Shown: piece after piece, positions 7,086-60,672 of the stretch
How positions within the stretch are numbered: the stretch's first letter is position 1
Layout of the letters: each line of letters starts with the position of its first letter
Assembly (NCBI RefSeq): GCF_001025175.1
Contig: NZ_AP012324.1
Span: 1,240,001-1,304,000 of the forward strand
Source of the DNA: Bifidobacterium breve DSM 20213 = JCM 1192
Lineage (GTDB): Bacteria; Actinomycetota; Actinomycetes; Actinomycetales; Bifidobacteriaceae
DNA: 64,000 nucleotides
Reading direction: 5' to 3'
Program-made: the position numbers and the translations under genes
The notes under the pieces: generated by a model
Databases searched by the model: none
The model's input: the letters and a program-made list of their open reading frames with translations, nothing else
What the model was told of the DNA's origin: nothing

Positions 7086-7092
7086 CAGGTAG

Positions 7093-7165
<73 letters not shown>

Positions 7166-7201
7166 ATATTTAGTTTTCCCGGCCAGTCTCCTGACCAGGT
7201 G

Positions 7202-7239
7202 AGCTCCTGTGACTGAGCTTGAACCAGTGACCGTCCGAT
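7202..7239 (-). repeat. Displaced tRNA-Asn 3' end (attachment-site remnant)
   Basis: 38 bases match the 3' part of tRNA-Asn, from just after the anticodon loop to past the discriminator, with a few changes relative to 7092-7129. Its T-stem pair is A-T, like tRNA 1 and unlike tRNA 2. This is what remains when an element integrates into a tRNA gene and pushes the original 3' end to its far border. There is no 5' half, so it is not a functional tRNA. Confidence 0.7.
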
Positions 7240-7469
7240 ATACGGTTCTGGCTTGCAGCCGTAGGGCTTCTTGCAACAGGAGTAGAGAGTACACCTGCTT
7301 TGCTTGTCCTTCAAATCGGCGTGTCTCGACAATTCTTCTCGGTGCACCCGGTTTTCCGAAGAGCTTCAGCCGTCGGCGAGAACATTGGCTAGGCTCCATG
7401 CAATCGCAAATAGCATTTTCTGGGGAGTGACGAAGACGTCACTTCCTTTTTCTATGCGAAGGAGCTGCC

Positions 7470-7712
7470 ATGAAGTACTGGAACTCGAACAGGAAAAGCT
7501 GCGAGCATGTCGAGCCACGCGAGGATTGGAAGGAATCCATCGAACTGTGGATCGACTGGATGGAAGCCATAGGCCGTACGGAAGAGACCTTGAGAACCCG
7601 ATGGTACCAGATCGTCCATTTCTCCAAAATCGTGAACAAGAGCATCACGGACGTGACCGAAGACGACCTCATATTTTATCTTGCCGGCATGGGCAGCTCG
7701 GCGGACACCCAA
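7470..7712 (+). pseudogene. Tyrosine integrase N-terminal fragment
   Basis: About 80 residues from the ATG at 7470 (MKYWNSNRKSCEHVEPREDW) look like the SAM-like core-binding domain of phage-type integrases: WIDWMEAIGRTEETLRTRWY and then ITDVTEDDLIFYLAG. GAAGGAGCTGCC precedes the ATG. From about 7712 the frame continues only by antisense reading of the HipA remnant and stops at 7787. The whole catalytic domain (R..HxxR..Y) is missing. Its place beside the tRNA remnant suggests it was the integrase of the island. Confidence 0.6.
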
Positions 7713-8310
7713 GGCCAGAAGGTCGTGGTCAAAACGTCGTACATGGGAGAAAGCCTGATGCCATCAGGAGAGAACATCAGGGAATAGTTCTTCGCATGCG
7801 CGTCAGCGTTCCCGACGGACACGTTCAAAGCGAGCTGGGCTATCCATGAATAGCAGAGCCCGTCGGCCGGATCGCATACGCCGGCAGAAAAATCGTCCTT
7901 TTCCTGTGCCGCCGGTGATGGTTCGGGCATTGCGGCGAGCTTGTCGAAGGTGTTGAGGAATACGCCGATCTCCCGGTCGCTGCTGATGGGATCCATGCCC
8001 TGGCCTTCGTCAGGGCGCACATGAAGTCGAGGTGATTGTCCACGAACGCGCCGAAACGTTCGAAATCACCGCCCTTGATGCCGGTCTCGCCCTTCTCGTA
8101 CAGGCTCGTATATTCGTCGCCCATGCGGTCGGCGAAGTCCCTTACCCTCATATCGATATCCCATTCGATGGGAGGGCATCCGAACGCCAGTTCAACGTAT
8201 CGGGATTCCACCGACATGCCCTGATCGGTTTTCAGATCCTTCCAGAAGCGGTCCACGGATTCCTTGCCGCCATCGTAGCGTCGGCCTGCGGTGTCGAACG
8301 GTTCGCCCAC
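7676..8310 (-). pseudogene. HipA kinase remnants and fused unknown segment
   Basis: Two overlapping minus-strand frames make one decayed gene. The upstream part (from 8310: MGEPFDTAGRRYDGGKESVD, later GDEYTSLYEKGETGIKGGDF) belongs to no family I recognise. Near 8015 it appears to continue in another frame (PISSDREIGVFLNTFDKL). It then runs into a HipA catalytic core, VSVGNADAHAKNYSLM followed by RLSPMYDVLTTTFWP, where HipA kinases carry NxDxHxKN and the DFG-like D. The N-terminal HipA lobe and the end are lost, so it is not functional. Confidence 0.6.
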
Positions 8311-9145: not shown

Positions 9146-9262
9146 CAAAGCTCCTTATCCGTTTCCGATAATTCTATCGAAGTGGCCGTGCCGGCAAAGG
9201 ACGCATATCTCTCATAGACGCCATGCGCCGCCGTGCCGGGCGCGCGGGCGGAGAATCATCGT

Positions 9263-10581
9263 ATGATACCGAATATCGTCAGGGGTTCGGACCCGGCCGG
9301 CCTGGTGCGCTACCTGTTCGGCAAGGGACGGCGCAATGAACACACCGACCAGCATCTCGTGTGCGCGAGCGGCGACATGTTTCCCTCGTTTGACATGGAT
9401 GGCAGGCCGGCGGCGTCGTATGCGGAGATAGGCCGCAGGTTCGACCGACGCTACCGCGTCAGGGAACGCAAGGACGATCCGTTCCCGCCCGACATGCGAG
9501 GCAAGAACAACCCCGAACGAGAGCATGGCAGGAAGCGCGTGTGGCACTGCTCGCTCGCCATCAAGGCCGGCCAGGGCATACTGACCGATCAGGAATGGGA
9601 GGCCGTCATCCGCGATTATCTGACGCGCATGAACATCATCGACGGCGACGACGATCAGGGCGTCACATGGCTCGCGGTCCGCCACGGACTGTCCGCCAAC
9701 GGCAACGACCACGTGCACATCATGGTGCAGCTCGCCGCCGACGACGGATGGATCAACCCGTACCACGACCGGATCAACGCGCAGAGATCATGCAGGCGGA
9801 TGGAGAAGACGCGCCCCGAACTGGTCGGGCTCGCACGCTCCGATACCGGCACGCGCGTCAGCTGGCAGTACGGGCAATGGCGGCAATGGGCCGAATGGAA
9901 GGCGCGGAACGAGTACGGCGACGAGCGGGATGGGAGGCGTTGGACGGCAAAGCGAGGAGCCGGCTCGTCACGGCGGTCGCCGCCTCCACGATGCCGCGCC
10001 AGTATGTCGGCCGGATCGTGGAGGCGTGCGCCAAGGCGTCGCGCAGCGAGGACGAGTTCATACGCCGCGTGCGCAGGGAAGGCTTCTCCATCGACCCCAG
10101 GCTGCGCAAGGGAACCGCCAAAGACTCGTTCACCGACCCCGGCCAGGTGGTCGGCTACCGGATCACGTGGCATAGCACGGATGGGTGGATGGAACGGTTC
10201 AACGCCTTCGAGCTCGGCGACGACATGCGATTGAAACGACTGCGCGACGACTGGGCGGACGATGCCAGAAGCCGCAGCCTCGCCGTCCAGGAATGGCGCG
10301 CCGCGATGGAGAACCGCCCGCCCTTCCTCGATGACGGACGAGAAAGACACCCCGAGAATCTATCCACGCACGACATGGAACGCCTCGTATCCGAAGCGTT
10401 CGCCATCGCCGCCAACCTCAACAGCGCGGCGGACGACGACGAATACCGGGCAGCGATGCGCGAGGGCCTGCACACGTTCGACATGCTGCGCGAACGCTAC
10501 GGGCTTACGCAGGACGGCCTGTGGATAACGGCCACGGAGATGAACGAAAGCCCTATGCCAGCGCACGTAGGAAAAATTTGA
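9263..10581 (+). pseudogene. MobA-like relaxase, frameshifted
   Basis: A mobilisation relaxase nicks the origin of transfer and leads the strand into a recipient. From the ATG at 9263 (MIPNIVRGSDPAGLVRYLFG) the protein carries the HUH-type motif NDHVHIMVQL near residue 155. Around 9925-9930 the coding signal moves from phase 2 to phase 1 (one base lost or two gained). The second frame continues with GWEALDGKARSRLVTAVAAS through GYRITWHSTDGWMERFNAFE to the stop at 10581. Joined, the product would be about 439 residues. Either a real mutation or a one-base sequence error would explain it. No T4CP is nearby, so at best it was mobilised in trans. Confidence 0.75.
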
Positions 10582-10738
10582 CAGCAGCCTCGAATCCCTA
10601 CCTCCGTCGCATGTCGGTGCAAACTCAGAAGGAATGTCCTCCCGAGAGTACACATCCGCTCTCATTCATTGAGGTATCGCGCGTAACGAGTTTTCATTGT
10701 AAATGCCACGGTATGGTGACGGATTTTGGAGGACGATA

Positions 10739-11833
10739 ATGACAATACAATATACAGCGCAGCCGGCTGATCCGGCGTCGAGTGCGGTGCTGACGCGCGG
10801 GCTGGTGAAGCGGTATGGGGATTTTCTCGCGGTGAACGGGTTGAATCTGAACGTGCCGGCGCATGGCGTGTATGGTTTGCTGGGGCCGAATGGTGCGGGC
10901 AAGTCCACGACGATGAAGCTGTTGCTTGGGTTGGCCTCGGCCACGAGCGGCGATATGTGGATGTTGGGGGAGAAGGTGGGTGGCCGGCACAGGTTGCAGG
11001 CGGGCCGGGTCGGTTCGATGATCGAGGGGCCGAGCTTCTACCCGGGGTTGAGCGGTCTGGATAATTGCCGTATGGTGGCCGATTACCTGAATCTGCCGGG
11101 TTCGGCCGCGCCCGCGATTTTGCGGCAGGTCGGTCTGGCCGGCCATGAGGGCAAGAAGGCGAGGGACTACTCGCTGGGGATGAAGCAGCGGCTGGGCATC
11201 GCGATGGCGTTGATCTCGCAGCCGGAGCTCCTGTTGCTGGACGAGCCGACGAACGGGCTGGACGCGGAGGCCGTGGTCGAGGTGCGCGAGATGATCATGG
11301 GTCTGAGCCGCGAACGGGGCATCACGGTGATCATCAGCTCGCATATCCTTTCCGAGATCGAGAAGATGGCGCCGGTCGTGGGCGTCATCGCGGCCGGCCG
11401 CCTGTTGTATCAGGGTTCGCTCGACAGTCTGCGCGAGGAGGGGCACATCGATTTGCGTGTCTCCGACCCGAAGCTCGCGGCGGCGATGCTGGGCTCGGAC
11501 CGGATCGACTACCGGTGGCTGCCGGGCAGGGATGGCGGCGTGCTGCGCCTGCCGGAACTGCCGGACCAGCGGATCGGCACCCTGATCACGCAGCTCGTCG
11601 GCCAGGGCGTCGCGGTCTATCGCGTCGCCTCCGAGCGCAAGACGCTGGAGCAGGCGTTCCTCGAACTGATCGAAAGCCCGCAGAGCCGCGAGCCCACGCC
11701 TCATCAGGCGCAAAATGCCATGGATTCCGACGCCGCACGCGCATCCGCGCACGCATCCCCGCGTCGTCCGTTGCCGATCCGGCAGGCTGCGGGTCGGGCG
11801 GCGTTCGCGGCGGCGGACGGAGGCGCACGATGA
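10739..11833 (+). CDS. BcrA/NukF-like ABC exporter ATP-binding protein
   Basis: The ATPase of a peptide-antibiotic type ABC exporter, 364 residues. Walker A GPNGAGKST is at about 49-57, the signature YSLGMKQRLGIAMAL at about 145-159, Walker B LLLLDEPTNGLD at about 167-178 and the H-loop IISSHILSE after it. GVYGLLGPNGAGKSTTMKLL is typical of bacitracin and lantibiotic immunity transporters. The C-terminal tail beyond residue 290 is Ala/Arg-rich. The ATG at 10739 follows GGAGG at 10728. It overlaps the next permease gene by four bases and is the first gene of a six-gene run ending in a two-component system. Substrate unknown; resistance to antimicrobial peptides is inference from family and context. 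Confidence 0.85.
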   Translation: MTIQYTAQPADPASSAVLTRGLVKRYGDFLAVNGLNLNVPAHGVYGLLGPNGAGKSTTMKLLLGLASATSGDMWMLGEKVGGRHRLQAGRVGSMIEGPSFYPGLSGLDNCRMVADYLNLPGSAAPAILRQVGLAGHEGKKARDYSLGMKQRLGIAMALISQPELLLLDEPTNGLDAEAVVEVREMIMGLSRERGITVIISSHILSEIEKMAPVVGVIAAGRLLYQGSLDSLREEGHIDLRVSDPKLAAAMLGSDRIDYRWLPGRDGGVLRLPELPDQRIGTLITQLVGQGVAVYRVASERKTLEQAFLELIESPQSREPTPHQAQNAMDSDAARASAHASPRRPLPIRQAAGRAAFAAADGGAR

Positions 11834-12669
11834 GCGGCGCGGCAGTGTTCGCGGCGACGGGCCGCCGTCCGCCGCGCCCCCGCGCGAAGACCGGCAGCCC
11901 GTTCACGCTGGCGCGTCTGGAGTTGTTGAAGGTGCGGGGCTCGTCGTTCTGGTGGATGCTGCTGGGCATGATGCTGCTGGTTTCGGCGTGGGCGGGCATG
12001 GCGTTCATGAAACGCGCCGGCAGTCCCGTCCCGGCGTTGAGGTCGGCCGCGTTGGCCGATGGCGAGGTCTATCAGGTCGTGAGCCTGCTGGCCCCGATTC
12101 TGGCGGCCCTGTTGACCAGCCGCATCGCCGTGCTGGAGACCTCGGAGCGCATGAACCTCACATGGCTGTCGTTCGGCCAGTCGGACGCGGCCCGGTTCGT
12201 GGGCAAGCTCATCGTCGCCGGCACCGGCGTGGGGCTTTGCTTCCTGATCCCGTTGCTGTGGGTGCCGATCGCGGCGAAGGCCCTTGGCTTCACGGTGGCC
12301 GGCTCGTTCGCCGCGCTGGTGTGGGTGCCGGCCCTGACCGGCTTCCTGTCCGCGACGGCCACGAGCGCGGTCCAGCTGATGTTCTCGATGATGATCGACA
12401 AGCAGGCCATCGGCCTGGGTCTGGGCGTCATCGCCGGCGTGCTGGGCTCCGGCCTGGGTGCGATGAACAGACCCGCGCTTGGCTGGCTGTTCCCGGCCGG
12501 CCTGAGTTCGGCCGCGAGCCCGTTCGTCAGATCCGTGGATGCGGGCGGCAACGCCACGATGCTGCTCGCCGCGCGCCCGTGGATGGCCGTGGCCTCCGCG
12601 GCCATGGCGTTCCTCGGCTGGACGCTGGTCAGCATGGTCGTGGTCAAGGTGAAGGAGTCAAGACGATGA
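11830..12669 (+). CDS. ABC-2 type permease subunit 1
   Basis: A 279-residue membrane protein starting MSGAAVFAATG at an ATG inside an ATGA overlap with the ATPase. About six hydrophobic segments are visible, including FWWMLLGMMLLVSAWAG, VVSLLAPILAALLTS, VGLCFLIPLLWVPIAA and LGLGVIAGVLGSGLGAM. The layout (cytosolic start, six helices, large loop after helix 1) matches BcrB/NukE-like permeases. It probably forms the transport channel with the next gene product. A further four-base overlap with the next gene shows translational coupling. Confidence 0.8.
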   Translation: MSGAAVFAATGRRPPRPRAKTGSPFTLARLELLKVRGSSFWWMLLGMMLLVSAWAGMAFMKRAGSPVPALRSAALADGEVYQVVSLLAPILAALLTSRIAVLETSERMNLTWLSFGQSDAARFVGKLIVAGTGVGLCFLIPLLWVPIAAKALGFTVAGSFAALVWVPALTGFLSATATSAVQLMFSMMIDKQAIGLGLGVIAGVLGSGLGAMNRPALGWLFPAGLSSAASPFVRSVDAGGNATMLLAARPWMAVASAAMAFLGWTLVSMVVVKVKESRR

Positions 12670-13529
12670 CACACGCAAACGCAGTGAACCCGGCAACCAA
12701 TCCGGCAATCAACCCGGCCGCCAATCCAGCTGCCGGCCCGAGCCATGCCGCGATGCCCCGCGCGCATGCGGCGGGACGCCGCAGGCCGTCCGTGTGGGCG
12801 GCGTTCCGCTGGGAGACGCGCAAGGCCGGCAACCTGTGGTACTGGATCGTGACCGTCTTGTTCGACGCGATCGGCATGTTCAACGGGTGGAGCCAGTACA
12901 CCGGCTACCAGGCGGAGTTCGCCAGGCAGGGCGTGACCTGGGCCGCGATCTGGGGTCAGGCGATCCTCCTGCCGAGCATGGTGTTCATGCCGGTGCTTGT
13001 GGCCGCGTTCGCCGCGCAGGTCGAAGCCAACGAGCATCGAGGCCGCAACTGGCAGCGGCTGAACGCCGCCGGCACCGTGAACGCGGCGATCGCCGGCAAG
13101 ATGCTGCACGGGCTCGCGGCTTCGGCGCTGACCGTTCTCGTGTTCGAGGCAGAGTTCATCCTCGTCGGACGCTTCGCCGCCGGATTCGACCTCGCGCAGC
13201 TCGGCCCGTTCCTGCTGCGCGGTATCCCGCTGACCCTGTCGGTATGGGCGATCATGACGCTCACGCAGGCCGTGAGCGCGAAGGCCGAATCGTTCGCGGG
13301 CACGATGAGCGTGATGATGGTCCTGACCATCGGCGGATGCGCGCTGAGCCTGGCCGCCCCGGCCATCGCCGGGCCGTATCCGCTCGCCCTGATCACCAGC
13401 GCCTCCGCCGCCCGCGACCTCGCGAACATCGCCAGCCCGGCATCCATGCTCGCCTCCACGACCGCCGCCGCCATCTGGACCGCCATCAGCGCCCTGATCT
13501 TCCACCGGCTCGCCAAACAAGCCGTCTGA
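12666..13529 (+). CDS. ABC-2 type permease subunit 2
   Basis: A 287-residue membrane protein with six predicted helices (LWYWIVTVLFDAIGMF, LLPSMVFMPVLVAAFAA, SALTVLVFEAEFILVG and others). Its first 25 residues are a short NPA repeat (NPATNPAINPAANPAAGP) not seen in typical family members, perhaps a slippage product. The ATG at 12666 overlaps the previous stop. Together with 10739 and 11830 it would make a complete exporter with two different permeases, as in lantibiotic immunity LanFEG systems. Confidence 0.8.
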   Translation: MTHANAVNPATNPAINPAANPAAGPSHAAMPRAHAAGRRRPSVWAAFRWETRKAGNLWYWIVTVLFDAIGMFNGWSQYTGYQAEFARQGVTWAAIWGQAILLPSMVFMPVLVAAFAAQVEANEHRGRNWQRLNAAGTVNAAIAGKMLHGLAASALTVLVFEAEFILVGRFAAGFDLAQLGPFLLRGIPLTLSVWAIMTLTQAVSAKAESFAGTMSVMMVLTIGGCALSLAAPAIAGPYPLALITSASAARDLANIASPASMLASTTAAAIWTAISALIFHRLAKQAV

Positions 13530-13540
13530 GCAACCGTCCA

Positions 13541-13567
13541 CGGGCTCCCCTCACCTGCGGGAGCCCG
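13541..13567 (+). other. Intergenic hairpin inside the exporter operon
   Basis: A 9-bp GC stem (13541-13549 with 13559-13567) 11 bases after the second permease stop. There is no T-run, so an RNA-stability or attenuation element is more likely than a full terminator. Confidence 0.45.
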
Positions 13568-13595
13568 CCACCCAACACCATGGAAAGGCTTCATC

Positions 13596-14084
13596 ATGCA
13601 CACCACCAGCCAACACAACGAACGACACGACGAACAACACAACGCGCCACACAACAGCGAACAGTCCATACGCCTGCCGCGCCGCGTCATCGCCGTGCTG
13701 ATCGCCGCCCTCGCCGCGATCATCCTCACCGGCTGCTCGACCGGCATCGGCGTGGCCGGAGACAGGAACCTCCAAGGCATACGCACCCAAGACGGCGACT
13801 CCTACACGGGCGGCTACAAGGCCGACTACAGCAAGTTCACCGGCGAGGAGGCCGTATTCGGCGGCACCGGCAAGAAGGCCAGCATCCACCTGAACGGCAC
13901 CATCACAGGCACATCCGGCACCGGCAGAATCCTCGTGACCAACGGCAGCGACACGAAACGACCCGTGCCCGCCACGAACGGCAAAATCGACCAGACCTAC
14001 AACGTCACAGGCACCAGCTTCTACATCTACGTCACCGGCGACCAATTCACCGGCACCGTGAACCTCACATCCAAGGAGCAATGA
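13596..14084 (+). CDS. Small lipoprotein of the exporter cassette
   Basis: A 162-residue lipoprotein. A His/Asn-rich 30-residue cytoplasmic start is followed by a helix (VIAVLIAALAAIILTGC) ending in the lipobox LTGC. The mature part is rich in Gly/Thr/Ser with short beta segments (ASIHLNGTITGTSGTGRILV, YNVTGTSFYIYVTGDQFTG), suggesting a compact beta-sandwich. I recognise no family. A lipoprotein coded with a LanFEG-like exporter suggests a NisI/SpaI-type immunity role, which is inference only. It overlaps the next gene by four bases (ATGA), with AAGGAG at 14073 serving that gene. Confidence 0.7.
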   Translation: MHTTSQHNERHDEQHNAPHNSEQSIRLPRRVIAVLIAALAAIILTGCSTGIGVAGDRNLQGIRTQDGDSYTGGYKADYSKFTGEEAVFGGTGKKASIHLNGTITGTSGTGRILVTNGSDTKRPVPATNGKIDQTYNVTGTSFYIYVTGDQFTGTVNLTSKEQ

Positions 14085-14437
14085 CCATGGCAAACACATC
14101 CCAATACCCAAACCAGCAACCGGCATATACGCCGGCACCGCCGGACGGCGGGCGGACATGGGGCGGCTGCGCCAGCCTCGCATTGGCCGTCCTTCCCCTT
14201 CTGTGCACGCTCGTGCCCCAGCTGCTCGGCATCCACCTCTACACGACGGGCTGGGTCAGGAACATCCTCGTCATCATCGACTTCGTATGCCTCATCGCTT
14301 CGCTCGTCATCGCGATCGTCACCTATCCCGAACAGGCGGGAGGACACAGAATCGTCAGTACAATCGCGATACTCTTATCCGCAGGCCTGACTGCCGCCGG
14401 CGGCATGCTCATCTTCCTCATGTTCATCAACCAGTAG
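14081..14437 (+). CDS. Small three-helix membrane protein
   Basis: 118 residues. The first 25 are polar and Pro/Gln-rich (NQQPAYTPAPPDGG), followed by three hydrophobic helices (LALAVLPLLCTLVPQL, ILVIIDFVCLIASLVIAIV, ISTIAILLSAGLTAAGG-like region to the end). No known motif. The ATG at 14081 overlaps the lipoprotein stop and follows AAGGAG. It may be an accessory subunit or immunity protein of the exporter. The next gene begins 123 bases downstream, so the kinase/regulator pair may have its own promoter. Confidence 0.65.
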   Translation: MTMANTSQYPNQQPAYTPAPPDGGRTWGGCASLALAVLPLLCTLVPQLLGIHLYTTGWVRNILVIIDFVCLIASLVIAIVTYPEQAGGHRIVSTIAILLSAGLTAAGGMLIFLMFINQ

Positions 14438-14560
14438 GAATCCGACTGACAACGGAAAACTTCTTTGGAAGTTCATCTAACCGCATACACGCCATACAGC
14501 ACAGGCCACATGCAATACGTTTCAACACGGATGGGGCAGCACCCAGGGAAGGAGAATCGC

Positions 14561-15850
14561 ATGACCGCAAAAACCGGAAACGACAAGCGCCACGCGGTTA
14601 CCGGCCTGATCGGCCACGTGGCCGCGTTCTGGCGGTCCAGCCCGGTCGCGCGCATGGTCGCGCCGATACTGTGCCTATGCTACGACGTGATGATGCTCAC
14701 CAGAATCGTATTCACCCATGGCGGGGGCGATTCGGCAGCCATGAAACTGTTGGAGCATCAATGGGGAATCCCCGTACTCGCCATCCTATGTGCCTTATCT
14801 GTTGTGGCGCTGTTGTTCCGTATCAGAATGCCGTTCGCTATTTTGTGTGCCATATGCGGATTGTATCTATGCGCTTGCTTGATTCAAGCGGAGCCATATC
14901 TGATGTTGCCTCTCTTGTTTGCCGTCTACACGTCTACAGCCTTGGCCGCGACCGCTGAACGTGCCATTGCGGGAATGGTTTTGTCGGGATTGTCAATCGT
15001 TTGCGGCCTCTGGATTGCGACCTTCCCCGCCTTGCAGACTGATATACTTCTGCCCGAGTCCCTCCTTGCGTCGATGACCGCTATTTTAGCTCTTTGGTCG
15101 CGCAACATCAGTCAGCGGCGGAAGGGAGCGGCCTTGGTGGAAGCTCAACAGCAACGAAGCCTGGAATTGGAACAGGAACGCGATGAAGAACGTCGGCGGG
15201 CGGACGTCGCAGCCGAACTGCATGACAGCGTGGGCCATAATCTCACCGCTATCATTGCACTTACTGAAGGCTTGGAGGGATTGACACAGGAGCCGGTGGA
15301 AGGCGCTATAAAGAGTATCAATAACTTAGCTCGGCAAAGTCTAGGTGATACACGCGAGGCGGTACGGAAACTTTCATCTCCGGTGACGTTACGGAAAACA
15401 AAAACAGGAACGGTGGAACTGTGCAGCTGGAATGATATAAACCCGATTCTTCAACATGCTCGTGATATTGGAATCGCCGCCATTCTGACCGAGACAGGAA
15501 GGCGTCCAGACGATCTAGCCCAAGCTGATTTATGCTTCCGAGTGAGTCGTGAGGCTGTCACAAACACAATGCGCCATGGGAAAAATATAACGCGAATTGT
15601 GGTTTCATGGGATCATCTGGATAATGGGGAACTCCATATAACAGTGCGTGATGATGGTAAGCCAACGCTGAACAAAGATAACCGCGCTAAGGGGACCGGT
15701 TTCGGGCTTGCTGGCCTAGTGACTGAAGTTACGCGGGTCGGCGGGCACCTTCACTATGGCTCATCATCAGGGCAGGGGTGGACTGTTTCAGCCATTATTC
15801 CACAGCAAAAACGTCCATATATTCCTGTGCAGGAGGGAAACGATGATTAA
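14561..15850 (+). CDS. NarL-type sensor histidine kinase
   Basis: A 429-residue membrane kinase. The N-terminal half has five or six helices and almost no extracellular domain, as in intramembrane-sensing kinases tied to peptide-antibiotic exporters. A coiled linker (about 184-215) leads to the HisKA_3 box AAELHDSVGHNLTAIIAL with phospho-acceptor His221. The HATPase part shows SREAVTNTMRHGK (N-box), VRDDGKP and GTGFGLAGL (G boxes). The ATG at 14561 follows AAGGAG. It overlaps the regulator gene by eight bases. The base composition changes from very GC-rich to mixed at about 14,780, within the membrane part. Confidence 0.88.
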   Translation: MTAKTGNDKRHAVTGLIGHVAAFWRSSPVARMVAPILCLCYDVMMLTRIVFTHGGGDSAAMKLLEHQWGIPVLAILCALSVVALLFRIRMPFAILCAICGLYLCACLIQAEPYLMLPLLFAVYTSTALAATAERAIAGMVLSGLSIVCGLWIATFPALQTDILLPESLLASMTAILALWSRNISQRRKGAALVEAQQQRSLELEQERDEERRRADVAAELHDSVGHNLTAIIALTEGLEGLTQEPVEGAIKSINNLARQSLGDTREAVRKLSSPVTLRKTKTGTVELCSWNDINPILQHARDIGIAAILTETGRRPDDLAQADLCFRVSREAVTNTMRHGKNITRIVVSWDHLDNGELHITVRDDGKPTLNKDNRAKGTGFGLAGLVTEVTRVGGHLHYGSSSGQGWTVSAIIPQQKRPYIPVQEGNDD

Positions 15851-16526
15851 CGTAATGATCGTGGACGATCAGCAGCCGACCAGAATGGGTTTTTCGCTCA
15901 TGGTCATGAAAGATCCTGCGCTTCGCATGACGTTGCAGGCGGGGAATGGACAGGATGCCCTTGATATTCTTGCGGCACTGCAATTACATGGGCAGAGCCT
16001 CCCTGACGTCATTCTTATGGATGTTCGCATGCCTGTTATGGATGGGCTCGATGCCACGGCAAGAATCAAACAGTTATATCCTTCAATACGTATCCTGATT
16101 TTAACCACATACGATCAGGATAGCTATGCGTTTGGGGGATTGAGCGTCGGAGCTTCGGGATTCTTGCTTAAGGACGTTAAGACTAAGGACCTGTGTCGGG
16201 CCATTCACTCGGTGTACGATGGAGACGCCATACTCACACCACGGATTACAAAGGAAGTGATTCGCCGAGGGGTTCCCAACGTCAGCATCAATGCTGACAC
16301 TCTGGCCATCAGAAGTAAATTCGATTCATTGGGCCCTCGCGAATTCGAAGTCTCAGCACTGGTCAGCGAAGGAATGACTAACGCTGAAATTGCTCAGCGT
16401 CTCGGAATGCAACTGGAGGCAGTCAAAAAGGCGGTTAGTAGGTCTCTTGCCAAGCTCGATGTCAAAGAACGTGTTGGTATCGCGGTGCTCTGGTATAAGG
16501 CCGGAATGCCGAATCTGCAGAAGTGA
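15843..16526 (+). CDS. LuxR/NarL-family response regulator
   Basis: A 227-residue regulator. The receiver domain has the acidic pair VDD at 7-9, phospho-acceptor Asp60 in VILMDVRMPVMDG, a TT switch (ILTTYD) and the Lys of FLLKDV. The LuxR-type helix-turn-helix is at about 160-215 (LGPREFEVSALVSEGMTNAE, then AVSRSLAKLDVKERV). AGGAGG lies just before the ATG at 15843. It pairs with the overlapping kinase and most plausibly controls the exporter genes upstream. Confidence 0.9.
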   Translation: MINVMIVDDQQPTRMGFSLMVMKDPALRMTLQAGNGQDALDILAALQLHGQSLPDVILMDVRMPVMDGLDATARIKQLYPSIRILILTTYDQDSYAFGGLSVGASGFLLKDVKTKDLCRAIHSVYDGDAILTPRITKEVIRRGVPNVSINADTLAIRSKFDSLGPREFEVSALVSEGMTNAEIAQRLGMQLEAVKKAVSRSLAKLDVKERVGIAVLWYKAGMPNLQK

Positions 16527-16710
16527 CAGATTCCGTAGAATAATGTAGGGTTTCTGAATCGTGAAGGGCTCGTAGCGGGCGAACCCGTGACGGTCCATAA
16601 CTGTCCTCGTTTGAATGGCGATCGGCGCGCATCGTGGTACCGCCGACCGGTATTTTCTCACGTGAATATAGTGCCGCTTGTCTCACCTGACAGATGCGGC
16701 CTAGCATTCA

Positions 16711-16972
<262 letters not shown>

Positions 16973-54127: not shown

Positions 54128-54222
54128 ATCGCCCCAGGAAATCCGGCATGTCCAAGATGAATTGGCTACAATGTATTAGACAGTCCGATGGGGGACGATT
54201 GACGTGGGATTGGAGGCCGGCG

Positions 54223-54516
54223 ATGGCCGGCCCGAGGCATCCCCGCCACTACGAGGAGTCGTTCAAACGGCAGATCGTGCAGTTGTATGAGAACGGCAAG
54301 CCCTCCCGGGAGATCAGGGCCGAGTACGACATCTCGCATTCCACGCCGCACCGTTGGGTCCAGGGCATCCGCGACAGCGGCTCCACCCGGGCCACGGACA
54401 ACCGCACGCCCGGGCGGAACGAGCCGGTCGGGCCGGGGAGGCGCAACAGGCAGTTGGAGATGGAGGTGGACGTTTCAGAACGAGCGGCGCCGGCATTCGC
54501 ACGAAAGCAGGCGTGA
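54223..54516 (+). CDS. IS3-like OrfA, copy A
   Basis: About 97 residues. MAGPRHPRHYEESFKRQIVQ opens the IS3 helix-turn-helix, with GKPSREIRAEYDISHSTPHR as the recognition part, then RWVQGIRDSGS. The C-terminal zipper normally present is poorly preserved. The stop overlaps a GTG that opens orfB. Confidence 0.75.
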   Translation: MAGPRHPRHYEESFKRQIVQLYENGKPSREIRAEYDISHSTPHRWVQGIRDSGSTRATDNRTPGRNEPVGPGRRNRQLEMEVDVSERAAPAFARKQA

Positions 54517-55345
54517 TACGGGCCAACGCCGCCCGTTATCCGATATCGGCGCGATGCGGGATGCCGGGCGTTCCCCGCTCCGCCTGCTACTGGATGATCG
54601 AACATCCCGAAGCCGAGCGGGTGGGCCCGATCGCCGGCGGCGTGCGCGCGGTCCGGCGCGACGGCCATGAGCGCTGCGGCGCCGGGAAGATCAAGGCCGC
54701 GCTGGAGCGGAGGGGCGTCACCGCGTCCGGGAGACGCGTCGGCAACATCATGCGCGAACGGGGCATGCGGGCGCGTATGCGCGCAGACGGTCCGAACCGC
54801 ACAGGACGCGGGCCGACGAGGCCGGGCTCGCGAACATCCTCGGCCGCGGGTTCGACGGCTACGAGCCGCGCACCCGCCTGGCCGGTGGCCTGACGTACGT
54901 GCGCGTCGGCGGCGAGTGGGCGTACGTGTGCCTGCTGGCCGGCCTGGCGAACAGGGGCATTACCGGCCACAGCGCCGGCACGGGCCGCACCGCCGACCTG
55001 GTCATGGCCGCGTTCGCCACGCTCGGCTTCCCCCTGACCGAGGTGGAGGTGTTCCACACGGACCGGGGCGGCGGGTTCGACGACGCGAGAATCGACGGGC
55101 CGCTCGACGTGTTCGACATCGGAGGATCGCCGTCAGGGAAGGGCGACCCGTACGACAACGCCGTGGTCGAATCCACCAACAGGCTCCTGAAGAAGGGGCT
55201 CATATACCGGAACCACCACACCGGCCTGGAACAACCACGCTCCGACCTCAACGACTATGTGTGGTGGTCCGACGACCAAAGACTCCACTCCACCCCCGGA
55301 TACCGGAGCCCCAACGAATTCACACAACAAGGACTCGTCCTCTAA
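54513..55345 (+). pseudogene. IS3-like transposase OrfB, frameshifted, copy A
   Basis: The HTH_21 part (IRANAARYPISARCGMPGVP to GRRVGNIMRERGMR) and the DDE part lie in different frames; a one-base loss near 54775 separates them. In the DDE part, GGLTYVRVGGEWAYVCLLAG has Gly where IS3 transposases carry the first catalytic Asp (DxTY). FHTDRGGGFDDARID keeps the second Asp and DPYDNAVVESTNRLLKKG the Glu. Frameshift and lost Asp make it inactive on its own. Confidence 0.8.
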
Positions 55346-55642
55346 AGAATTGCCCAACACACCGTTGCCAATCCAGATGCCGAACGTCCCGACGGGACGG
55401 CGGCCGTGTCATCAAAGCGACCGCACGAACTCTCCGCCCGGAAGCGGACGGCGCTGATTTTGGAGGACCCATCGGCCGTGGCATTCCCGGGCCCGGAACA
55501 TGCCATGGGGTTTGCGGACCCCGGGCGACGCCGCATGGCCTTCCCGTTCCCGCGCCACGGGCGGCGGCATGGTTCATGGCGCCGACGGTGAGTCCGTCCG
55601 CACGCGGAGCGCTTCCATGCCTCGCTGACGGATGGTGGCGAT

Positions 55643-58890: not shown

Positions 58891-59419
58891 AATCGCCATT
58901 GGCCGCGCAACGCCACATCCCGTCTCACAGCGGCGAACGTTCCATCCGCCTTCAGGCTCACGGATACCTTACGGAAGTCCCCCGTCCCGTCCAATGCGTA
59001 CAACGCCTTCGAGGCGGCCTCCTTCGCGCAGAAGGCCGCCCTACGTTCCACCGAGGAGGCCATACGCAATGATGCGAGCTCTTCGGAAGAGAACACGAAC
59101 CGCATGATCCCGTCGGACAATCCGTCCGAATCGTCCACGTCCACTCCCACGGCACGGATTCTTTCCGCCGACGCCACGGCGGCGACGCACAGCGACGGAC
59201 AATGCGACAGCGATCCCACGATGCCGGATGGCCAGAGCGGTTCACCATCCGAACCTTTGAGTATGGGCCCGTCATGGCCGATACGTCGTAAGGCCTCGTG
59301 GGCCAAAAGACGCGTCTCCGTGAATTCCCTTCTTCGTTTGGCCGTGGCGTTCCCGACCAAGGCCCGCTCACCGTCGAACAATCGCACGCGGCGCGTCCCC
59401 TCCCCCGAGATCAGCACCT
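58839..59419 (-). pseudogene. Sfp/EntD-type phosphopantetheinyl transferase, N-terminus cut by IS
   Basis: An EntD-like PPTase adds 4'-phosphopantetheine to carrier proteins of peptide or polyketide synthases. Visible are RREFTETRLLAHEALRRIG, the Pro/His block GIVGSLSHCPSLCVAAVAS, the metal site AVGVDVDDSD and the KEA motif FCAKEAASKALYALDGTGDF. IS copy B begins at 59420 and replaces the first 25-30 codons, so no start remains unless the IS supplies one. No synthase or carrier protein is in the window. Confidence 0.8.
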
Positions 59420-59449
59420 TGGATTGGCAACGGTGTGTTGGGCAATTCT

Positions 59450-60282
59450 TTAGAGGACGAGTCCTTGTTGTGTGAATTCGTTGGGGCTCCGGTATCCGGG
59501 GGTGGAGTGGAGTCTTTGGTCGTCGGACCACCACACATAGTCGTTGAGGTCGGAGCGTGGTTGTTCCAGGCCGGTGTGGTGGTTCCGGTATATGAGCCCC
59601 TTCTTCAGGAGCCTGTTGGTGGATTCGACCACGGCGTTGTCGTACGGGTCGCCCTTCCCTGACGGCGATCCTCCGATGTCGAACACGTCGAGCGGCCCGT
59701 CGATTCTCGCGTCGTCGAACCCGCCGCCCCGGTCCGTGTGGAACACCTCCACCTCGGTCAGGGGGAAGCCGAGCGTGGCGAACGCGGCCATGACCAGGTC
59801 GGCGGTGCGGCCCGTGCCGGCGCTGTGGCCGGTAATGCCCCTGTTCGCCAGGCCGGCCAGCAGGCACACGTACGCCCACTCGCCGCCGACGCGCACGTAC
59901 GTCAGGCCACCGGCCAGGCGGGTGCGCGGCTCGTAGCCGTCGAACCCGCGGCCGAGGATGTTCGCGAGCCCGGCCTCGTCGGCCCGCGTCCTGTGCGGTT
60001 CGGACCGTCTGCGCGCATACGCGCCCGCATGCCCCGTTCGCGCATGATGTTGCCGACGCGTCTCCCGGACGCGGTGACGCCCCTCCGCTCCAGCGCGGCC
60101 TTGATCTTCCCGGCGCCGCAGCGCTCATGGCCGTCGCGCCGGACCGCGCGCACGCCGCCGGCGATCGGGCCCACCCGCTCGGCTTCGGGATGTTCGATCA
60201 TCCAGTAGCAGGCGGAGCGGGGAACGCCCGGCATCCCGCATCGCGCCGATATCGGATAACGGGCGGCGTTGGCCCGTATCAC
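59450..60282 (-). pseudogene. IS3-like transposase OrfB, frameshifted, copy B
   Basis: The two open frames give the same proteins as copy A, with the same break between the HTH and DDE parts and the same Gly in place of the first catalytic Asp. Not functional alone. Confidence 0.8.
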
Positions 60283-60572
60283 GCCTGCTTTCGTGCGAAT
60301 GCCGGCGCCGCTCGTTCTGAAACGTCCACCTCCATCTCCAACTGCCTGTTGCGCCTCCCCGGCCCGACCGGCTCGTTCCGCCCGGGCGTGCGGTTGTCCG
60401 TGGCCCGGGTGGAGCCGCTGTCGCGGATGCCCTGGACCCAACGGTGCGGCGTGGAATGCGAGATGTCGTACTCGGCCCTGATCTCGCGCGCCGGCTCGCC
60501 GTTCTCATACAACTGCACGATCTGCCGTTTGAACGACTCCTCGTAGTGGCGGGGATGCCTCGGGCCGGCCAT
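60279..60572 (-). CDS. IS3-like OrfA, copy B
   Basis: About 97 residues, equal to copy A apart from two substitutions in the turn region (GEPAREIRAEYDISHSTPHR). An intact helix-turn-helix protein without a working partner. Confidence 0.75.
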   Translation of the reverse strand: MAGPRHPRHYEESFKRQIVQLYENGEPAREIRAEYDISHSTPHRWVQGIRDSGSTRATDNRTPGRNEPVGPGRRNRQLEMEVDVSERAAPAFARKQA

Positions 60573-60672
60573 CGCCGGCCTCCAATCCCACGTCAATCGT
60601 CCCCCATCGGACTGTCTAATACATTGTAGCCAATCCACGCACACGAAAGAAGCATGCGAGTGTTCCTGCGAC

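Follow-up and report, generated by a model that had tools for sequence, protein, structure and literature searches.

The cassette at positions 10739-16526 in the chromosome of Bifidobacterium breve DSM 20213 raises the question of what a transporter, a lipoprotein and a sensing pair of lantibiotic-immunity type can do in a bacterium with no lantibiotic genes beside them. The window analysed here, a stretch of 64,000 nucleotides, was at first annotated from its letters alone, and the cassette was taken for an uncharacterised, candidate peptide-antibiotic immunity system, carried as island cargo without biosynthesis genes. This function was seen correctly and is strongly supported by the present analysis. 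The cassette is not uncharacterised, since it matches pscEFGHIKR, for which an immunity function was tested in 2024 (PMC11305057). It is very probably that half of the pseudocin 196 cluster (lacticin-481 group) which serves immunity and regulation, without pscAMT, and would confer orphan lantibiotic immunity. Such “immune mimicry” is the best reading of the locus.

All seven open reading frames lie closely packed on the forward strand, each at the place given in the initial annotation. The first, pscE (10739..11833), encodes a LanF-type ABC ATPase, assigned by profile match, motif and alignment, with Walker A, Walker B and signature motifs intact. Profile matches identify pscF (11830..12669) and pscG (12666..13529) as ABC-2 permeases 1 and 2, LanE-like and LanG-like, respectively. 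They are followed by pscH (13596..14084), encoding a lipoprotein with a predicted beta-sandwich domain (lipobox, structure model and published assay), and by pscI (14081..14437), whose product has the three hydrophobic membrane segments that the initial annotation had described, belongs to no named family and had no detectable effect in the published assay. The two-component genes pscK (14561..15850) and pscR (15843..16526) complete the set. The four-base overlaps claimed through the first five genes are present at junctions 1/2, 2/3 and 4/5, but junction 3/4 has a 66-nt gap with a G+C-rich hairpin (13540..13568, forward strand; folding energy MFE -26 kcal/mol, z -2.4). The overlap of pscK and pscR (junction 6/7) is 8 nt.

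One ATPase and two different ABC-2 permeases, of 279 and 287 aa, in a single operon constitute a transporter of the LanFEG/CprABC type. Both permeases match ABC2_membrane_4, PscG just below the cut-off, and PscF has in addition a weak match to MutG (E 0.005). The top NCBIfam model for PscE is the lantibiotic-protection ATPase TIGR03740, at 222.9 bits and thus below the cut-off of 309.75, which was probably set for a narrower subfamily. In ATPases of the LanFEG/CprABC type a glutamate replaces the Q-loop glutamine, and this E-loop glutamate is invariant in all 33 aligned ATPases, PscE included. PscK had been described as an intramembrane-type kinase; it is instead a HisKA_3 histidine kinase with several membrane segments, not a two-helix sensor of the BceS type, and PscR is a NarL/LuxR-type response regulator (both by profile match). 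BceAB-type systems combine a single 10-helix permease, bearing a large extracellular loop, with a two-helix kinase, and detoxification of this type was rejected on account of the two permeases and the multi-segment kinase. Anti-phage defence was likewise rejected, as PADLOC recognises no more than a general ATPase domain.

The identity of the cassette follows from comparison with the pseudocin 196 cluster of B. pseudocatenulatum MM0196, which has the gene order pscE-F-G-H-I-K-R-A-M-T and flanking IS elements (PMC11305057). Gene names in that paper follow the order, so that its pscE is the ATPase gene here, and the window has the same order from E to R. The annealing parts (16-21 nt) of the published psc PCR primers (PMC11305057) were searched in the window. 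All eight EFGHIKR primers match exactly, once each and in the right order and strand, at 10732-10748, 13569-13587, 13587-13602, 14069-14087, 14085-14100, 14439-14454, 14541-14558 and 16645-16665, and none of the four pscAMT primers matches in the window. One primer ends just before 14561, which supports the ATG at this position as the start of pscK. Since a related locus with 73-89% identity (G087) matches none of the primers, the match of the window means near identity to MM0196, as judged from about 140 primer bases and the gene order. The window therefore holds the immunity-plus-sensor half, with no precursor, synthetase or exporter gene, and unlike the MM0196 cluster it stands within a decayed tRNA-Asn island. 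The genes themselves were thus already described in 2024 as part of the pseudocin 196 cluster (PMC11305057); the stand-alone occurrence, the recent interspecies transfer, the putative operator and the PscH family beyond bifidobacteria are added here. No description of a stand-alone copy with its apparent control switch was found in the literature searched, nor was any literature on pseudocin or PscH besides the original paper and its correction.

Biosynthesis genes were found neither in the cassette nor elsewhere in the genome. Protein searches of the complete 2.27-Mb genome gave no match to LanC, LanM or a lacticin-481-like LanA, so that the absence of LanA, LanM and LanC holds genome-wide at the sensitivity of these searches, where the initial annotation had remarked on the lack of a LanA or LanB/C-like gene, and a producer cluster elsewhere in the genome was rejected. 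DUF4135 also gave no match, in a search without a positive control, and the LanC and LanM searches, both of which detected the producer relative G112, were therefore relied on. The second permease is present in 33 of 189 Bifidobacteriaceae genomes, and the inspected loci carry the ATPase-permease-permease-kinase-regulator core, which in G086 is reduced to a pseudogene fragment; a plasmid search with the same permease gave no match. One genome, G150, has two copies of the core (L048 and L054), one with and one without pscH/pscI, and forms a natural pair for comparison of specificity.

The core without pscH is thus widespread in non-producers, and the HisKA_3/NarL class of the sensing pair is that of envelope-stress systems, both of which would suit general envelope-stress or detergent-peptide efflux (LnrLMN or LiaFSR-like) with a natural substrate other than a lantibiotic. 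This explanation is nevertheless unlikely, since the cassette corresponds gene for gene to a cluster whose lantibiotic immunity has been tested, and since the NCBIfam model closest to PscE is the lantibiotic-protection one. Moreover, a homologous core is found inside a real lanA-M-T cluster. LanM occurs in only one of the 33 core-bearing genomes, the small Bifidobacteriaceae genome G112, where a complete lacticin-481-type cluster (lanA-M-T-F-E-G-K-R; L077:3006-12300) encodes a 51-aa precursor with the lacticin-481-like end HTLTHECHMNTWQFLLTCC, followed by LanM, LanT and F-E-G-K-R. The F, E, G, K and R proteins of this cluster are 47, 26, 35, 32 and 49% identical to those of the window, respectively, and stand in the same order under the same putative operator. 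The G112 cluster differs from the window in being a complete producer, with precursor and LanM, and in having no pscH or pscI.

The putative operator is the palindrome TGTCCTCCCGAGAGTACA at 10635..10652, upstream of pscE, which follows the consensus TGTCCNCNNNNGNGGACA. With at most two mismatches in its 12 fixed positions, this pattern precedes the first transporter gene (lanF) in all 32 intact orphan loci, the window and 31 others. Under simple base frequencies, the probability of a chance match with two mismatches in a stretch of 200 nt is about 0.7%. When no more than one mismatch is allowed, the upstream stretches yield 25 matches against four elsewhere in 620 kb, and one of these four is located about 110 nt upstream of lanA in G112. 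The sequences that bear the site are related rather than independent, yet several diverged groups keep it while the surroundings differ. The same pattern occurs 21 times at one mismatch in the host's own genome, so that it cannot by itself delimit a regulon. Downstream of the palindrome is a promoter-like pair of hexamers, aligned by eye (-35 TTGAGG, -10 TTTCAT, 17-nt spacer; 10671..10699, forward strand), which may be the operon promoter. A TTG hexamer follows the palindrome, usually at a distance of 15 nt (18 nt before pscE), and a -10-like hexamer comes 17 nt after it; this arrangement recurs in most relatives. From its conservation and position, the palindrome is likely to be the operator of PscR. 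In G112 the site stands before lanA and not before lanF, with F-E-G-K-R coming after lanA-M-T, and in the orphans it stands before the transporter genes; this placement is expected if the regulator drives the entire cluster in producers but only the immunity genes in non-producers.

Direct evidence for immunity comes from the pseudocin study, in which H and I are listed as proteins of unknown function (PMC11305057). In the heterologous host L. cremoris NZ9000, EFG alone or H alone gave no protection, EFG together with H, and EFGHI, protected partially, and PscI had no significant effect, whether by itself or combined with EFG (PMC11305057). Protection by EFG plus H in Lactococcus is the only experimental element of the present account (PMC11305057); presentation of the peptide to PscEFG is the role that the authors propose for PscH (PMC11305057). 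The initial annotation compared the cassette with LanFEG plus LanI and a sensing pair; a LanFEG-type transporter, a lipoprotein and such a pair are indeed present, but in that study PscH, unlike NisI, acted only with the transporter. A lipoprotein beside LanFEG with a sensing pair could suggest LanI-type immunity, with PscH alone shielding the cell and the transporter secondary, as NisI protects on its own in the otherwise similar NisFEG-NisI-NisRK system for nisin. This is highly improbable, as PscH on its own did not protect (PMC11305057), no sequence relation between NisI and PscH was found, a sequence search of solved structures in the PDB gave no match, and neither NisI nor SpaI was among the 50 best fold matches to a query model built on two sequences. 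That AlphaFold model is a beta-sandwich with pLDDT of about 90 over residues 70-160, and a fold search with it retrieves only generic domains (of pre-peptidase C-terminal and collagen-binding-like type), with TM of about 0.6 by target length and none at E <0.001.

The lipoprotein had been called unrecognised, and it does have a lipobox (LTGC) and no family in Pfam or NCBIfam, but it is already known as PscH. Its gene is found in the window, G053, G087 and G150, with a frameshifted copy in G138/G139, a distribution that needs at least two gains or losses on the tree of the ATPase and second permease. PscH relatives (about 30-36% identity) stand directly after LanFEG in two further loci, a plasmid of Subdoligranulum (Bacillota; L083) and an IMG/VR contig (L094), and the known spread of PscH beyond bifidobacteria consists of these two loci. 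Residues invariant in the family include the lipid-bearing cysteine of the lipobox, the motif D.Y.G.Y.A.Y..F and FGGT. The Subdoligranulum variabile plasmid carries two tandem LanFEG sets (L083:2635-8345) flanked by two-component genes on either side, and the PscH-like lipoprotein follows the second set. Two further PscH matches, from a search of genome contigs, were rejected as chance matches to signal peptides.

The surroundings of the cassette are a decayed island with a broken relaxase, a truncated integrase and copies of tRNA-Asn. On its left side are an intact tRNA-Asn (7092-7165), a partial tRNA-Asn copy on the reverse strand that forms the left repeat (7196..7246) and, on the forward strand, a truncated N-terminal piece of a tyrosine integrase (7470..7787; weak match). 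A relaxase gene (PF03432, profile match; 9233..10581, forward strand) is split by a frameshift near 9925, so that the mobilisable element is probably immobile, and the right end is a reverse-strand tRNA-Asn (16899..16972) beside tsaD. The island also holds a HipA fragment and a Fic-like gene. This decay of integrase and relaxase, together with pseudogene relatives such as the frameshifted pscH of G138/G139 and the fragmentary core of G086, might indicate that the cassette is itself an inert relic, left from a lost lantibiotic cluster and no longer active. However, all seven frames are intact despite the surrounding decay and recur at 97-100% protein identity in another species, and many species that lack LanM retain the operator and core. 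In that other species (G053) the copy occupies the same tRNA-Asn/tsaD site. Positions 10547..16720 (forward strand) align there at 99.26% identity over 6175 bp, whereas the chromosomal flanks are only about 73% identical, which points to recent horizontal transfer. The limits of the transferred unit lie near the operon, as would fit selection for the cassette itself, and the inert relic is quite unlikely. To the left of the G053 cassette (L046:15844-19900) are an IS element and polyketide-synthase-like, acyltransferase-like and phosphopantetheinyl-transferase-like genes, which amount to a small natural-product cluster in a bifidobacterium. Two segments of the window, 54158-55375 and 59419-60639, are 91% identical to this IS element.

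Stand-alone LanFEG systems have been described before, namely lcrSR-lctFEG of Streptococcus mutans, which acts on lacticin 481 and nukacin, and CprABCK-R of Clostridioides difficile (PMC5786555), so that the kind is known and orphan immunity in the window is a further member. The lcrSR-lctFEG system of S. mutans UA159 differs from it in phylum and gene order, and the available portion of the account makes no mention of PscH/PscI-type genes (PMC5786555). CprABCK-R resembles the window in combining an ATPase, two different permeases and a two-component system without biosynthesis genes, and an adjoining lipoprotein gene, CD1348, has no shown role (PMC5786555). Unlike the multi-segment PscK, the kinase CprK is a two-helix protein with an extracellular loop.

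A mechanism for orphan immunity can be proposed from these components. PscK would sense a lantibiotic at the membrane or the resulting envelope damage, and PscR may then bind the palindrome before pscE and raise transcription of the operon. At the surface, PscH could capture the peptide or present it to PscEFG, which would remove the lantibiotic from the membrane and expel it. As the host has the same self-protection and sensor genes as the pseudocin 196 producer without the producing genes, it probably resists a neighbour's weapon, and the cassette would provide inducible resistance to a lantibiotic of other gut bacteria.

It is quite possible, as a tentative proposal, that stand-alone psc-type cassettes provide bifidobacteria with a widespread layer of resistance, exchanged horizontally and induced by peptides, in which one conserved PscR palindrome controls biosynthesis where the bacterium is a producer and defence where it is not. 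By the same proposal, PscH would be the founding member of a lipoprotein family that spans phyla, its members passing the lantibiotic to LanFEG and functioning only together with it. Pseudocin inhibits B. adolescentis NCFB 2229 and B. longum NCIMB 8809, but not B. breve UCC2003, B. bifidum NCIMB 8810 or B. longum CCUG 52486 (PMC11305057). A B. breve host with the cassette would fit the insensitivity of UCC2003 to pseudocin 196, although UCC2003 is another strain. Stand-alone immunity halves offer a direct and testable cause of the differing sensitivity of bifidobacteria. Should the operator prove correct, the sensor might also be used in these organisms as a switch that responds to lantibiotics. 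PscH, a protein unnamed in Pfam and NCBIfam, gains a family and a role.
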